Shown: piece after piece, positions 845 through 24,874 of the stretch | Layout of the letters: each line of letters starts with the position of its first letter | How positions within the stretch are numbered: position 1 is the first letter of the stretch | Assembly: GCA_903847315.1 (NCBI GenBank) | Contig: CAINDG010000005.1 | Coordinates: forward strand, 1 to 38,161 | From: an uncultured Planctomycetota bacterium | Lineage (GTDB): Bacteria > Planctomycetota > Phycisphaerae > Sedimentisphaerales > UBA12454 | Direction of reading: 5' to 3' | DNA length: 38,161 bases | Position numbers and translations under genes: made by a program | Notes under the pieces: model-generated | Seen by the model: the letters and a program-made list of their open reading frames with translations, nothing else | Told to the model about the DNA's origin: nothing | The model's database searches: none

Positions 845-1927
845 ATGAGTAGAAAACAAAAAATATTTCTGCTGGTTTCTATCTTTTGCTTTGTTGGTCT
901 GATTTTGGGACTCCACTTAAGCAATTGGAATGTGCAATTGGTAGGGCAGATACTATGGCAGGGCAGTACAAAATTTCATCTGCCTAAAGATTATTCAACA
1001 CTTCGTAATACGGACAAGATTGGTTTCTGGGTAACTATAGCCGGAGCTGTTCTTACGACATTTTTTGGTATTATCAGCCTTCATAATCCTACAAAAAAAT
1101 TGGGTAAGAAAATTGATGTGATGAGTAGTACACTGGGGCGAATAGACAAGCAGTTGCAAGATGACCAAGGTGAACAGGATAAAAGTAAAAGCGAGCAGCA
1201 AGTTTCCACGCCGAAACAGGGAGAAGTCCTGCGTCTCATGTTTGACGACAAATATGCCCCGGTTGGTGGTCGCTACGCAGTGTCCCTATTCATGAACGAC
1301 CTGTCGCGAATTCATGCCCGCACAGGCTCCATGCCGTCCTACGAGATAAACGTCAAAGGCTACACCGACACCCGCTTAGAACTCGAACATCTCGAAGACA
1401 ACCTGTCCAACAACGCGGACGCACAAACCCGGCGATTCGAGTTGCGCCGGGCCGTGGACAATAAACGAGTAAGCGGAGGTCTTCCCGTTGATCTTTACAT
1501 CGCAGAGGCAATCGGCATTTCGGCGCGACAATTGAGGCCAGGCCGACTAGTGTGGATTAATAAACACGAGCAATATGTGGACTCTTTCATGACGTTCATC
1601 TCCCTACTTGCGGATGGATGGCCGCAGCCAAGCGATCCGTTCGACATCTTCCCTCTTGAGGAAACCGGTAACTGGTATGCGCGTATGTACTTAACAGAGC
1701 CAGAAATCGATACACTATTGAGCACTGAGGGTTGCCCCAGCGTGCATCATCTGACACGCGAATGGGGATTGCGCGTAATGGACTGCCCTATGGATATAGT
1801 TCAGAAACGTGTCATCCCCGGCCTTCTTCAGTCCTATCTTTTCTGGAGGTCAAGTCGACCGGAGCAACTTCCGGATGAGGATCAGTACTTTAGAGATATG
1901 TCGAAGTACGGCATTGGTTTGCATTAG
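845..1927 (+). CDS. Unrecognised membrane-anchored protein
   Basis: I do not recognise this 360-residue protein. Two hydrophobic segments are visible (about residues 7-25 and 58-80), followed by a polar linker rich in K, D, Q and E (about 98-125) and a soluble domain to the C-terminus. The likely topology is two membrane helices with a large soluble C-terminal part. There is no Shine-Dalgarno sequence, and the ATG follows an AT-rich low-complexity stretch (785-844), so the start is uncertain. The first 350 nt are AT-rich while the soluble domain from about 1200 is clearly richer in G+C, which hints at a fusion of two sources. The stop is TAG, showing that TAG serves as a normal stop here. Confidence 0.65.
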   Translation: MSRKQKIFLLVSIFCFVGLILGLHLSNWNVQLVGQILWQGSTKFHLPKDYSTLRNTDKIGFWVTIAGAVLTTFFGIISLHNPTKKLGKKIDVMSSTLGRIDKQLQDDQGEQDKSKSEQQVSTPKQGEVLRLMFDDKYAPVGGRYAVSLFMNDLSRIHARTGSMPSYEINVKGYTDTRLELEHLEDNLSNNADAQTRRFELRRAVDNKRVSGGLPVDLYIAEAIGISARQLRPGRLVWINKHEQYVDSFMTFISLLADGWPQPSDPFDIFPLEETGNWYARMYLTEPEIDTLLSTEGCPSVHHLTREWGLRVMDCPMDIVQKRVIPGLLQSYLFWRSSRPEQLPDEDQYFRDMSKYGIGLH

Positions 1928-18180: not shown

Positions 18181-19143
<963 letters not shown>

Positions 19144-19182
19144 TTAAAAAAGTTTGTAAACTACATCACAATATAGGGTAAT

Positions 19183-19211
19183 GATATAACCCCGCACCTC
19201 TTTTAAGTCAA
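19183..19211 (-). promoter_or_regulatory. Sigma-70-type promoter of fba
   Basis: On the minus strand TTGACT (19206-19211) stands 17 nt before TATATC (19183-19188). Transcription would start near 19176 and give a leader of about 45 nt before the fba ATG. A GATAAAGCGTT motif lies just upstream of the -35 box. Confidence 0.6.
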
Positions 19212-19327
19212 GAATTATTTAACAAACGCTTTATCTGGTTTTGCCTTCTTTTTTCAAGCTCCTGCTCTGTCAGATGTGGAGTTTTTCGCAGTGTTTTTTA
19301 TCTATTTAAATGTGTGTTTGACCCTGA

Positions 19328-19414
19328 TTAAATGCGATGTTTTTTACTCAAAACCAATCCGCCTAAGCCGAGGAGTAAAAGCGTGGCGGGCCTGCCCGAC
19401 GTAGCAATGATTTA
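19328..19414 (-). pseudogene. Orphan PEP-CTERM C-terminal tail
   Basis: The minus strand reads GRPATLLLLGLGGLVLSKKHR before a TAA at 19328. This is the hydrophobic helix plus basic tail of a PEP-CTERM sorting signal, but the PEP motif is altered to GRP. It has no start of its own and is out of frame with the HAF gene just upstream. It looks like the leftover end of a second sorted protein. The rest of the 19132-19424 spacer holds only the fba promoter and no gene. Confidence 0.55.
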
Positions 19415-19424
19415 TATTGTCAAC

Positions 19425-19583
19425 TTATCGTTGTTTGCGTTTCAAAGCAATGAATAGACCAGCCAGAGTCATTATCGTTGCGGAGGCGGGTTCAGGAACT
19501 GGTGTCATCAGGTAAGCATGCGTCTGACCATTAATAGTACCCTCTCCCACAATTTGACCTAAATCATTAATACCTTTGGCATC
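19425..19583 (-). pseudogene. Severed C-terminal end of the HAF-repeat protein with PEP-CTERM signal
   Basis: Directly after the TAG at 19584-19586 the same frame stays open for 52 codons. It encodes one more HAF repeat (KGINDLGQIVGEG...HAYL) and a full PEP-CTERM signal: PVPEPASAT, a hydrophobic helix (MTLAGLFIAL) and a basic end (KRKQR). It ends with TAA at 19425. Repeat phase and frame are kept, so a single codon change separates it from the main gene. Confidence 0.8.
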
Positions 19584-20498
19584 CTATAATACCCAGCCGC
19601 TGCCTGTTGGCAGCAAGGCATTTAAATCAATCATTGCAGCCTCATCATACAAATAGGCGTGGTAGGCAGAATCTCCAGTAATAAAACTTCTCCCTACAAC
19701 CTGACCACTGTCATTGATACCGGAAGCTTCCGACAAACTTCCCCCTAAAGTTCCAAGGTCATTCATTGTAATGCCATCATACAAAAAGGCGTGGTAGGCA
19801 GAATTTCCAGTAATATTACTAAGCCCTACAACCTGACCGCTGTCATTGATGCCGTAAGCTTGAGAGTGACTTCCCCCTAAAGTTCCAAGGTCATTCATTG
19901 CAGTGCCATCATACAAAAAGGCGTGGTAGCTAAAACTTCCAGTAGTTTCACTGTACCCTACAACCTGCCCGCTGTCATTGATGCCGTTAGCATAAGAGTA
20001 CCATCCACGTCCTAAGGCCCCAAGATCCTTCATTGTAGTGCCATCATACAAAAAGGCGTGTTTGGTTAAGAGCCAAGTAGAAGCGTTCCCTATAATCTGA
20101 CCACTGTTATTGATGCCGAAAGCATAAATTCCAGGCCCAAGGCCTTCCATTTTAGTACCATTATACAAAAAGCCAAAATTGGCAGAATTTCCAGTAGTAT
20201 CACTGCACCCTACAACCTGCCCGTCGTTATTGATGCCGGTAGCATAAGAGTTACTTCCTCCTAAAGTTCCAAGGTCTTTCATTGTAGTGCCATCGTATAA
20301 AAAGGCGTGGTAGCTGGAATTTCCAGCAATCTCACTTTTCCCTACAACCTGCCCGCTGTTATTGATGCCGGTAGCATAAGAGGTACTTCCCCCTAAAGTT
20401 CCAAGGTTGGTAATTGTATATTGTGTTACAGCCGTCACCTGCTCAGAGCCGACTAACATTAAAATACCGGCCATCATAATAATAAACTGCTTTTTCAT
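19584..20498 (-). CDS. HAF-repeat exported protein, truncated by in-frame TAG
   Basis: A signal peptide (about residues 1-23, MKKQFIIMMAGIL...) is followed by tandem repeats of about 40 residues with the pattern DLGTLGGxxSxAxGINDSGQVVGxS...HAFLYDGTxM, the HAF repeat. Six repeats precede the stop and one follows it. Such proteins are predicted beta-propellers exposed on the cell surface. The stop falls within GSGWVL-stop-DAKGIND, mid-repeat, leaving the protein without the PEP-CTERM signal needed for sorting. I start at MKKQF because the signal peptide begins there; longer in-frame starts exist up to 20594. The repeats are similar at DNA level, so they can recombine. Confidence 0.8.
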   Translation of the reverse strand: MKKQFIIMMAGILMLVGSEQVTAVTQYTITNLGTLGGSTSYATGINNSGQVVGKSEIAGNSSYHAFLYDGTTMKDLGTLGGSNSYATGINNDGQVVGCSDTTGNSANFGFLYNGTKMEGLGPGIYAFGINNSGQIIGNASTWLLTKHAFLYDGTTMKDLGALGRGWYSYANGINDSGQVVGYSETTGSFSYHAFLYDGTAMNDLGTLGGSHSQAYGINDSGQVVGLSNITGNSAYHAFLYDGITMNDLGTLGGSLSEASGINDSGQVVGRSFITGDSAYHAYLYDEAAMIDLNALLPTGSGWVL

Positions 20499-20727
20499 TT
20501 TCTTATTTCGCACCAAAAATTTGCGCAATGATACCGCTGGGTTGTGAACGAATGGGAAATCCTCCAATAACTTCTCATTTTCTTCCTTCTCCAAAAATAA
20601 CTTACTCTATTATAGATATTTCCTGCCGGAAATCAAGAAAAAAACGCTGCAAATAGGTTATCAATCAGAACGAAAATAGGTGCGATTTTTAGTGCCGTCC
20701 CGCTTCGACTCAGCGAGGCGAGCAGGA

Positions 20728-23715
20728 TTAGTAATTACGGTCTTTTGGGGCATCCAGACCCATATATGTCTTAGAACCGAATCCCAGTTCTCCGATTCCT
20801 TCCGGCCATATATTAAGGATAACAGCCCGTCTCTTAAGTGACTCGTCAACACTGTAAGTAAGACCGTAACAAAGCCTGTGATATCGCCTGATAAGTGTAA
20901 CCTGGCTGGCTATTGTTCTGTTTCGTTCGAAATCATACTGATGGGCGAAAGAAATCATATAACGAGGACTAAGTTTGTATGTCATAGCAAAGGTAAAGGC
21001 GTTCGAGCCTGTTTTGCCGTCAACTTCCACATTTTTCAGATATCGGGTGCCGACATAATAACTCAGGTCCGGCCAGACGAGTCGGGAAAATCCTATGTTG
21101 AACTGCTCAATCTCATTGTTGGTTGTGTTGTAACTGAGGTCGCTCAGGATTGCCGTTGTGTCGCTCAGACGCCAGAGGTAATCCGCGTTAAAACTGTCGT
21201 GCTGCGGACCGAAAAGTTCAAACTGCCGATAGCTGCTCAAATCGCCGTTGAAAATTCCCGGCATTGAGTAAACTGAAAGCGGTACAAGCGAATCGTTCCA
21301 GAGAGTCCTCTCGGGTCTTTTTATATCCTTGTCCGCGTTGCTGACCTTCGTGTATTGCATATCCAATCGCATCCAGTCGAGAATCCTGCTCTTTTCTCCG
21401 ACGCCGCGTTTAGTCTGGAACCGCTGCAAAAGACCGAGGGTGTAAACATCTTTCTGGTCAATCACGTCGCTGCTTTTGGCAAAAACCGCCGCGTTGGCAT
21501 AAGGCTTTACGATATGACGAATGCCGTCAAGGTCCCAGAATACGGAGCGGACATTGTTGTAAGTCTTCCAGTACTGCGTCGAAGCCCTGGCGCCTACCTC
21601 GCCTATAAAAATATCTTTTGTGCCGAAATCAGAGCTTTCTCCGATGGCTGCGTCTCTGTTAAAGCCAGTTCCATCATCATAGCCGAAAGTGCCGGCTGCG
21701 TAAGGTACAATATTGCCGGCCGTGAACTTCATCGGCATATCAAGCTCTGTGCGGGTCGAGCCGAACGTGAAATAGTCTTGTGAAACATTTAGAACGTGGT
21801 CTTTGCCGATTCGCTGACGGAATCTGCCAAGGGTACTGTCGTTATATAAAGTGAACTTGTCGTTGAAAAGCGACTGTCCCTCTAAATGATACTGTGCCGA
21901 GGGAAGCTGCTCGGTCTCGTCGGCAAAATCGTTTATCCGCCATTTGCCCAGCAGCGCAAATGCCTGGTTGTCTTTTATCCATTTCAGCTGTATGGCTGTT
22001 TCCCGCTGCATACTGGTCAGGAATTTGTTTCGCTGGAAAGATTCGAGAAAATTTTCGTCGGATTCATAGTCAGTTTCCAGAGTAAGCTGCCAGTGATACG
22101 GCAGGAACTGCCTGTGCTGGAAACTAAATATACCTCTTAATGCCTTGTCGGGTTCGAGATTCTGCCTGTCTCTGCTCAGGTCGTCTTGGCCGCGGTCGCT
22201 GATTATATAACCGTTAATATTGCCGAAGTAAGTATCTCTTTTATAATTTATATCAGCGCCTATACCTGTGCCGCGTTTGGAATAGTAATCGTACGCAAGA
22301 GTCGAATCGACGCCGTGCGGCTCGCGAAGGCCGAGAACCCTCGCAAGATACCATTCAGTCTCAATGGACGTGCCGAAAGTATTGTCGTGAGCGAACTGCA
22401 GTTTTTTGATGGGAAGGTCGGGTCTTTCAAAATTGCCCCGCATGCCGGGCCAGTAAAATATTGTATGGTTATCGACCTTCAGCTTTACGTCTTTCATCAT
22501 CGCGTCATAGCTGTGCTTGTCGAGCTTTCCGGCCTCCTGGTCGATAGTTGTAGTGTCGGCGATATAAATTTCCGAAACTGTCGCCGAAATTTTTGGAACG
22601 TAAAACTCACTGCTGGTCAGTGTAACATTTTTGCCTGCGAATTTATTCTCACCGACCTGTTTGAGTTTGGCCGCTCTTACATAAATCGGGATTCCGCGCG
22701 TCGGCTCGAAAGTCCGCATCACGGTATTTACAGCCAACGCCTGCTTTTTCTGAAAATCATAATAGACCTCGTCAGCGCGAATCGTTCTGTTGCCTTCGGT
22801 CATAATTATATCGCCGCGAAGATAGACAGCCTTGACAGTATTGTCGACCGGCAGAAGATCGGCGGTTTTATTCGGCTCATTTGTCCTGCGGGAATAAAAA
22901 ATTACCGCCGCGTCGGCCTGGAACTCAAGCAATCTGCCGCTTTCGTCCTGCTTTTGCCACAGGTAGAACCTGTTCAGCACCGTCGATATGCTTGTGCCGT
23001 CGGTGAGATTTTCATTTGTGATTTTTACAGGCGTGTCAGTTGCGCTGCTTATATTGACGGGATACTGGAATTTGGCTGCCGGTGCTTCCGGAGTCGTCGT
23101 TGCCGCGGGCTGCCGCTGACCGGTTTTCTCCGTGCCGAAAACTTTTTCAAGGACATTCGGCTTGGCAGGAGCCTGCTGCTGAGCAATAGCGGCTTTTTCC
23201 TCTGCGGGCAATGCCGCCTGACCTGTCGCGACAAGCGCGTTATGGTAAATCGCACTTGCGCGAGGGTCTTCTTCGATTCGCTTGTCGGCTGTTACGAGAA
23301 TTTCGCCGGCCACCGCAAATTTCGCGACCAGCGATTCTGCTCCCTCGATTACGGGCTTGCTGACGTCAACGCCCGATGTTTTCGAACCCGGGCCGGAGAC
23401 TGCCGTTACCTTGTCCTGCAGATAAACCGTTATTTTGTACTCGATATCTTTACCGCCGCGATATTCGGTAGTGACGGTGTTCAGCCAGACAACAGCCTGT
23501 CTGCTTTTGAGTTCATTATCACCGAGAGTGAGATTAAAGCCGTCGCTGAATACGAGAATGTTGTCGCCGCCGGCGATTTGGAAACTTGTCACCGACCCGC
23601 CGCGCAGATGAAGGTCGTCGGCGCCGAAAAACCGCGCCTCACCGGACTCAATCGCCCAGAGACAATCCGTGCCGAAAAGCAATACCAATATAAGGCAGAT
23701 AAGTTGTTTGCGCAT
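20728..23715 (-). CDS. lptD: LptD-like outer-membrane LPS-assembly protein
   Basis: After a signal peptide (MRKQLICLILVLLFG...) comes a long region with OstA/LptA-type beta-jellyroll strands, recognisable around GDIIMTEGNRTIRADEVYYD. It continues into a C-terminal region of alternating aromatic and polar strands that fits a large beta-barrel (about the last 550 residues). This is the layout of LptD, which inserts lipopolysaccharide into the outer leaflet of the outer membrane. A Pro/Ala/Gln-rich linker interrupts the N-terminal part. The start at MRKQ (23715) is preferred because a TATAAT box lies 31 nt upstream and a longer start at 23778 would lie above that promoter. No LptE gene is adjacent. 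The assignment is by pattern and the sequence is divergent. Confidence 0.75.
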   Translation of the reverse strand: MRKQLICLILVLLFGTDCLWAIESGEARFFGADDLHLRGGSVTSFQIAGGDNILVFSDGFNLTLGDNELKSRQAVVWLNTVTTEYRGGKDIEYKITVYLQDKVTAVSGPGSKTSGVDVSKPVIEGAESLVAKFAVAGEILVTADKRIEEDPRASAIYHNALVATGQAALPAEEKAAIAQQQAPAKPNVLEKVFGTEKTGQRQPAATTTPEAPAAKFQYPVNISSATDTPVKITNENLTDGTSISTVLNRFYLWQKQDESGRLLEFQADAAVIFYSRRTNEPNKTADLLPVDNTVKAVYLRGDIIMTEGNRTIRADEVYYDFQKKQALAVNTVMRTFEPTRGIPIYVRAAKLKQVGENKFAGKNVTLTSSEFYVPKISATVSEIYIADTTTIDQEAGKLDKHSYDAMMKDVKLKVDNHTIFYWPGMRGNFERPDLPIKKLQFAHDNTFGTSIETEWYLARVLGLREPHGVDSTLAYDYYSKRGTGIGADINYKRDTYFGNINGYIISDRGQDDLSRDRQNLEPDKALRGIFSFQHRQFLPYHWQLTLETDYESDENFLESFQRNKFLTSMQRETAIQLKWIKDNQAFALLGKWRINDFADETEQLPSAQYHLEGQSLFNDKFTLYNDSTLGRFRQRIGKDHVLNVSQDYFTFGSTRTELDMPMKFTAGNIVPYAAGTFGYDDGTGFNRDAAIGESSDFGTKDIFIGEVGARASTQYWKTYNNVRSVFWDLDGIRHIVKPYANAAVFAKSSDVIDQKDVYTLGLLQRFQTKRGVGEKSRILDWMRLDMQYTKVSNADKDIKRPERTLWNDSLVPLSVYSMPGIFNGDLSSYRQFELFGPQHDSFNADYLWRLSDTTAILSDLSYNTTNNEIEQFNIGFSRLVWPDLSYYVGTRYLKNVEVDGKTGSNAFTFAMTYKLSPRYMISFAHQYDFERNRTIASQVTLIRRYHRLCYGLTYSVDESLKRRAVILNIWPEGIGELGFGSKTYMGLDAPKDRNY

Positions 23716-23745
23716 ATCTTCCAGTAAAATCCCTTTAACGCAGTG

Positions 23746-23751
23746 ATTATA
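23746..23751 (-). promoter_or_regulatory. -10 box of the lptD-like gene
   Basis: A perfect TATAAT lies on the minus strand 31 nt before the preferred ATG at 23715. The -35 region is weak (TCTGGA at 18 nt spacing). It supports the shorter start. Confidence 0.45.
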
Positions 23752-23930
23752 GCTATGCCAAACTATAAATCCAGACATAAATTCGTAAAAACCTTAATAT
23801 TAGTATTGATATTAACGATGTATAACTTATAGTCCGATAAAGCGTTATGGAAAAAAGCCGATGGTGTTGATTGTCAGGGGGCGGTTGTAACTTCTTATTA
23901 AATAGAACGATATGGAAATGAGCCGTTGAA

Positions 23931-24232: not shown

Positions 24233-24874
24233 ATGGACAAATATCAAAGCAAAGGACTGCGTTTATTAGCAGCGGCGGGCGGGGTGCTTCTCATTTTATC
24301 TCAGGCGGTCTTTGGCACAACTTACTATTCTTTCGGTAAGAAAGTTAACCAGTCTTTCGGGCCGGCGAATACCAAAAGCTGGACCTCTGCGGAAATTTTT
24401 GTGCCGGCCAGCGGAAACATTCTCAATCTTGACCTTGCTCTTAATATAGAACATACAAGTTTCTGCAACCTTCAAATTTATATCGACAGTCCGCAGGGTA
24501 CCACGGCGTGCATCAACTACTACGATAGGGACAATTTCGTCAAAGACAGAAAATGTCTTGGCTGGATGGTGCTTGACGAAGAAAGCCTGTTTGGTATAGA
24601 CCAGGCACAGGACCTTTATATGGGGCTTTTCAAACCGAACGGGCCGGACAGGCTAAGTATGTTTTATGGCCAGCAAAGTCTTGGTAAGTGGACTGTGCGA
24701 ATTTACGATGCTGTATATGGCGATACAGGGATACTAAGAGATGTAAGAATAGATATGGCCATAGCCCCTAAACTTTCGACAGCGATATTTATTCCCGAAC
24801 CATCGACCATTTTTCTGGCAGCAGCATCAGTTGTGTTTTTGCTCAAAACACAACGGCGGCAAATCAATTGTTAG
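24233..24874 (+). CDS. PEP-CTERM protein with proprotein-convertase P-domain-like fold
   Basis: The 213-residue protein has a signal peptide (about 1-28, ending QAVFG). A beta-rich domain follows with the pattern of the P/Homo B domain: NILNLDLALNIEHTSFCNLQIYIDSPQGT early and GKWTVRIYDAVYGDTGILRDVRIDM late. It ends in a PEP-CTERM signal (FIPEPSTIF, hydrophobic helix, KTQRRQ). The protein should be exported, sorted by the exosortase system and held at the cell surface or in exopolymer. There is no protease domain, so the P-domain stands alone, perhaps as a binding module. Expression appears to be from a nearly leaderless mRNA. Confidence 0.85.
   Translation: MDKYQSKGLRLLAAAGGVLLILSQAVFGTTYYSFGKKVNQSFGPANTKSWTSAEIFVPASGNILNLDLALNIEHTSFCNLQIYIDSPQGTTACINYYDRDNFVKDRKCLGWMVLDEESLFGIDQAQDLYMGLFKPNGPDRLSMFYGQQSLGKWTVRIYDAVYGDTGILRDVRIDMAIAPKLSTAIFIPEPSTIFLAAASVVFLLKTQRRQINC

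Follow-up and report, generated by a model that had tools for sequence, protein, structure and literature searches.

An extra HAF-repeat gene copy with an apparently replaced PEP-CTERM tail, interrupted by an in-frame TAG

The HAF-repeat gene on the minus strand of the window (i.e. the whole 38,161-nucleotide stretch of DNA that was analysed, contig C5 of a 2.44 Mb genome in 54 contigs, 97% complete) appears to be a lineage-specific extra copy with a replaced C-terminal tail. Both features go beyond what was seen by the earlier note on this DNA, which was concerned with an in-frame TAG that cuts the gene off from its PEP-CTERM sorting signal. In the scenario that we favour, and which as a whole we consider probable, a gene for a HAF-repeat PEP-CTERM protein would have been copied and, promoter and leader included, inserted at a site flanked by fba and a conserved gene. 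About 100 bp carrying the 3′ end of another PEP-CTERM gene would then have entered at the PEP codons, displacing the original tail, which would persist as a relic downstream; finally, a nonsense mutation, probably a recent one, would have produced the TAG, 28 codons ahead of the PEP-CTERM signal. Most likely, the gene is at the start of decay, as a duplicate that would be dispensable with its role covered by an intact paralogue. The features of the sequence from which we infer this order of events are an extra copy at a site that is empty in relatives, a 100-bp gap with repeats, a tail-like piece, the TAG and conservation at the level of a profile past the TAG.

The claim of the earlier note that the frame is intact on both sides of the stop holds. 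The TAG at 19584-19586 is the sole interruption of 20498-19425 (minus strand), the translation of which gives 304 residues, the TAG, 52 residues and a TAA, so that as a matter of sequence the frame finding is real. The part through the TAG (19584-20498, minus) encodes an N-terminal hydrophobic stretch, the N terminus (MKKQFIIMMAGILMLVGS) resembling a signal peptide as judged by eye, and HAF repeats, which match the repeat model TIGR02913 in six stretches with 255.6 bits (curated cut-off 22.65). The 52-codon frame past the TAG (19425-19583, minus; TAA at 19425-19427) includes the last, partial HAF repeat (19506-19580, minus; residues 2-26, TIGR02913 31.8 bits) and, starting 28 codons after the TAG, the PEP-CTERM sorting signal that is currently in frame (19428-19499, minus; TIGR02595 20.6 bits, cut-off 16). 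The proposed location of both elements past the TAG was thus supported at the NCBIfam cut-offs, the PEP-CTERM match scoring below that of Pfam (PF07589, 18.5 bits, cut-off 20.7).

In having a PEP motif, a hydrophobic helix and a basic end, the window gene resembles the proteins of the PEP-CTERM/exosortase (EpsH) system (TIGR02595, PF07589), and its genome likewise has many members, with 63 PEP-CTERM matches (62 of which exceed the cut-off), and an exosortase (PF09721, 182.3 bits, C31:111910-112692). By contrast with those proteins, its signal comes after a stop, and has seemingly been replaced via a small insertion, with the old one left. Similarly, its body matches the repeat profile of the HAF-repeat proteins (TIGR02913; Pfam DUF3466, PF11949), from which it differs in that its last repeat lies past the TAG. 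With the PEP-CTERM signal located past the in-frame stop, the translated product is without the C-terminal PEP motif, helix and basic end. Because neither the last repeat nor the exosortase signal is part of the 304-residue product, the truncated gene as it stands should give an exported protein that is released and not sorted. Recently formed pseudogenes and gene copies that carry one premature stop are a known kind, and the window gene is like them in having one nonsense codon in a well-kept duplicate, with an intact paralogue present. It is unlike them in that the loss falls just before the sorting signal, and the predicted product is therefore released rather than missing.

The HAF protein matches four places in its own genome. 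The nearest paralogue, L002 (C47:77880-78926), is intact and 69% identical to the window protein in amino acid sequence; at the DNA level the homology (79%) begins some 155 bp ahead of the start codon and extends to the PEP codons. The window copy is located between a conserved 1016-aa gene on its upstream side (20728-23778, minus; no Pfam match), which we take to be LptD-like, and fba, encoding a class II fructose-bisphosphate aldolase (PF01116, 335 bits), on its downstream side (18181-19131, minus). A comparison of 24 fba match rows from 23 genomes, one row being the window's own, found the upstream neighbour 89-292 bp from fba in 14 rows, five of them from the same genus, while in nine rows the neighbour was absent from the stretch examined. 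In all 14 relatives in which the pair adjoins, no HAF match is present between fba and the upstream neighbour. Because the interval in relatives is so short, and holds no HAF gene, the HAF gene is most likely, as judged from these sequences, an insertion in the window's lineage. A single scan of the contigs of other genomes for same-species copies, from which records of the same genome may have been left out, gave two loci, with 58% and 56%.

The gene is preceded by a conserved leader (20508-20640, minus), comprising a sigma-70-like promoter (20636-20609, by match to the consensus) and a short frame, EKEENE..EDFPFV.NPA..LRK. This leader of about 130 bp is common to the window, L002, L016, L032, L086, L181-L183, L186 and L189. 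The leader peptide has 14 matches, in four of 59 genomes, with a PEP-CTERM gene then following in nine of the 14 (the window gene included). Across the ten aligned copies, in two of which the leader frame is not intact, differences from the window number 43, 24 and 68 at the first, second and third codon positions, respectively, a dominance of the third position that favours a short peptide. The leader was also considered as a structured RNA, a candidate that was rejected, none of 17 predicted pairs having changes on both sides in five sequences; an Rfam search of 19150-20750 gave no family at E values up to 1.

At the 3′ end of the gene, homology with L002 ends at a CCCGCC (19490-19485) and restarts at a second CCCGCC (19390-19385), 100 bp on. 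The 100-bp insert relative to L002 (19385-19484, minus) supplies the helix, the basic end and the stop, plus 40 bp more. The left direct-repeat copy (19485-19490, minus) provides Pro-Ala codons at the PEP motif and the right copy (19385-19390, minus) lies 100 bp beyond it; the 6-bp repeat fits either a target duplication or microhomology. The coding part of the insert agrees with the tail of an unrelated PEP-CTERM gene (C12:39310-39381) at 45 of 60 bases, compared with 31 of 60 before the insert and 10 of 40 after the stop; taken with the PEP codons, the present tail is 79% identical to the C12 tail over 76 bp. Downstream, PATLLLLGLGGLVLSKKHRI plus a stop (19328-19390, minus), located in an open frame of 27 aa that lacks a gene body, matches the L002 tail at 86.5% over 52 bp, the best match among the loci compared, and scores 15.7 bits alone, and 16.3 bits with its neighbours, on the PEP-CTERM profile (cut-off 16). 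Since the coding part of the insert matches the C12 tail and the downstream piece matches the L002 tail, the present sorting signal appears to have been acquired, the presumed original tail surviving downstream as a relic, outside the frame.

The same picture could have arisen if a second PEP-CTERM gene had once adjoined the HAF gene and had lost its body by deletion, the relic being what is left of its end, in which case the present tail would be the HAF gene's own. PEP-CTERM genes are often side by side in this genome, and short stretches of the relic match other tails (L061, 82% over 51 bp; L086, 93% over 29 bp), as might be expected on such a route. However, the gene and its paralogue align colinearly on either side of the 100-bp gap, each end of which bears CCCGCC, and it is the tail of the HAF paralogue that the relic matches best, whereas the tail now in frame shares just 53% identity with that of the paralogue. 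Deletion is thus the less likely route to the observed arrangement, and we regard loss of a second gene as rather unlikely; an insertion, and not a deletion, would then have given the gene its present tail.

The insert was also considered as a mobile element and rejected as such; beyond its own place and the C12 tail, the matches listed in the 59 genomes had E values of only 0.003 or worse. Short motifs from its right end were absent from the other stretches of its own genome that were compared (286,448 bases, overlaps included), except for one 8-base motif that was present once. Within 400 bp downstream of the 63 PEP-CTERM frames of the genome, the window's was the only old-tail relic, the single other match being a neighbouring annotated tail. 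At L084 2339-2395 (C9), an open frame of 34 aa contains a further orphan tail that is PEP-CTERM-like, EPATLLLLGLGAVIIRRRRTS, and that is possibly a second relic.

With regard to the age of the TAG, the stretch that lies between the TAG and the PEP motif was compared with intact C-terminal segments (14 rows from 32 HAF loci, plus L035), selected with a pattern in which a PEP-like motif was obligatory. A profile built from 14 of the intact segments, L002 being left out, gives the window segment 74.3 bits, compared with 50.6-73.9 bits for the 15 intact segments scored leave-one-out. Neutral simulations of the L002 segment reached 74.3 bits in none of 1000 runs at 16, 12 or 8 substitutions, and in seven of 1000 at 4 substitutions. 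A plain count of amino acid changes separates the window from neutrality weakly, the runs with no more changes than the window numbering 23, 292, 965 and 1000 per 1000 (16, 12, 8 and 4 substitutions, respectively). Because the post-TAG segment scores like its intact homologues, and at a level rarely or never matched by the neutral simulations, the TAG looks recent; probably, the frame was translated to the tail until recently, or the TAG is an error. On the profile score, a recent nonsense mutation is hence the best supported of the three options that the earlier note had offered, with the qualification that the branch counts hint at the opposite. In a three-way split with L035, the window branch has about 6 nonsynonymous and 1.5 synonymous changes over the 32 post-TAG codons, and the L002 branch 2.5 and 6, which hints at an earlier relaxation and thus against a recent stop, the numbers being too small to decide.

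Should the TAG be a consensus error or a minority variant, the gene would be intact in the population, and its protein sorted by means of the acquired tail. Both the post-TAG segment and the acquired tail look functional, as this would predict, and the number of contigs (54) is compatible with what we presume to be a metagenome assembly. Lone base errors that make an in-frame stop are, however, uncommon in an assembled consensus, and we consider an artefact or variant of this type to be unlikely.

The ratio dN/dS between the window gene and L002 is 0.67 before the TAG and 0.29 beyond it (32 codons); relative to L035 it is 0.33 both before the TAG and beyond. Because of the ratio of 0.67 between the two paralogues, the 304-residue pre-TAG part may still be under selection. 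It can be envisaged that the truncation is stable and itself selected, the duplicate providing a HAF protein that is released without sorting, in addition to the sorted paralogue. The complete frame, promoter-like site and leader that the pre-TAG part keeps are consistent with such a role, as are its dN/dS ratios below 1 relative to both the paralogue and L035; those ratios, however, may mostly reflect the time before the TAG, and a selected truncation seems distinctly unlikely. The early decay of a dispensable duplicate, following a probably recent nonsense mutation, remains the preferred reading.

The genes at 845-1927 (plus) and 5656-5447 (minus) both end in TAG, as the earlier note had pointed out, and TAG closes 12 of the 63 PEP-CTERM frames of the genome and six of 24 large window ORFs (hand-picked). 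RF1 is present (prfA, 446.4 bits, cut-off 423.25, intact 369-aa frame), and no CUA anticodon is found among the 45 tRNAs found in the genome, a set in which a divergent suppressor could be missed. The opinion that genome-wide recoding is unlikely is thus sustained, TAG being a common stop with an intact RF1. The suggestion that stop codon readthrough might yield a mix of released and sorted forms finds a point in its favour in the frame and signal that are kept past the TAG. Against it, aside from RF1 and the tRNA set, the RNA that follows the TAG shows no unusual folding (z 0.10 and 0.11) and the column of the TAG is variable, with sense codons in the paralogue and in the compared relatives. 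Further, internal stops are present in only two of 118 homologous match rows from 59 genomes, i.e. in the window gene and at G055:C55. Since TAG serves as an ordinary stop in this genome, with RF1 present and no UAG-reading tRNA among the 45, programmed readthrough is unlikely, and a programmed mixture of forms is in our estimation highly improbable. A release-factor-like match elsewhere in the genome (L179, C12:36967-37260; 50.8 bits, below the prfA cut-off, with two internal stops listed) may represent a fragment or else some related small protein.

The tail replacement was viewed in the light of other PEP-CTERM genes with homologous bodies. The own genome has 17 such pairs among 62 frames, the relic being left out, and random tail pairs average 54% identity. 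In 11 of the 17 the tails are less than 62% identical, and in nine of those 11 the 60 bp before the tails are 65-90% identical; the remaining pairs comprise two with tails of 64-65% and four with tails of 72-94% identity. One own-genome pair, C23/C26, is situated at the ends of contigs and may have arisen through assembly. In the 11 pairs with low tail identity the 3′ flanks are 37-62% identical, except for one at 77%. The 3′ flanks thus for the most part diverge as well, so that the majority of the cases have the look of bodies attached, at the PEP codons, to resident tails. Two relatives of the same genus gave related results. In G003 (29 sites, eight pairs) the drop occurs in four of the eight pairs, the other four, including that with the most similar bodies (94%), having tails of 78-94%. 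In G004 (100 sites, six pairs) it occurs in three of the six, one pair being 97% identical before the PEP motif and 57% after. The pairs in these genomes have members in common and do not count as independent.

It may be that sorting signals are swapped at the PEP codons in the form of small DNA cassettes, either when a body that has been copied to another place in the genome joins the tail of its landing site or when a short insertion brings a new one; the window gene would then have been caught midway, having a new tail in frame while its former tail survives as a fossil. We put this forward tentatively, as a proposal that falls somewhat short of an even chance. If it is correct, a cell could quickly retarget or release its surface proteins, and, if the tail classes differ in cutting or anchoring, exchange would constitute a testable route to new surface-protein repertoires. 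The stop itself is ordinary in kind; what is rare is a legible series from copy, through tail replacement with a fossil, to tail loss. The replacement with its fossil, together with recurrent exchange, is more interesting than the TAG, and may show how exosortase-sorted surface proteins diversify.

In the parts of Haft et al. (2006, PMC1569441) considered here, the PEP-CTERM tail is described as modular, a domain that has expanded by paralogy within each lineage, and its carriers as being among the fastest evolving proteins. The terms 'recombination', 'gene conversion' and 'shuffl' are absent from the main text of that paper, and exchange of tails between paralogues is not stated in those parts. 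Among the titles and starts of abstracts listed, no PEP-CTERM literature on tail exchange was found, nor was literature found that joins PEP-CTERM with the HAF repeat, a premature stop codon or gene conversion.

The window has a second PEP-CTERM gene (24233-24874, plus), which is intact, encodes a proprotein convertase P-domain and has TAG as its stop. Bodies that are 82-94% similar, with tails that are unrelated from the PEP motif onwards, are seen in the own genome (C26:120036/C40:127601 and C29:14689/C47:37178), in G004 (C97:29206/C97:30402) and in G003 (C13:53570/C17:2688). A run of 16 PEP-CTERM matches is present at C26:118345-132252 of the own genome, for 13 of which there is a partner tail that is 85-89% identical in DNA, the residues that precede these tails being, by eye, mostly dissimilar.
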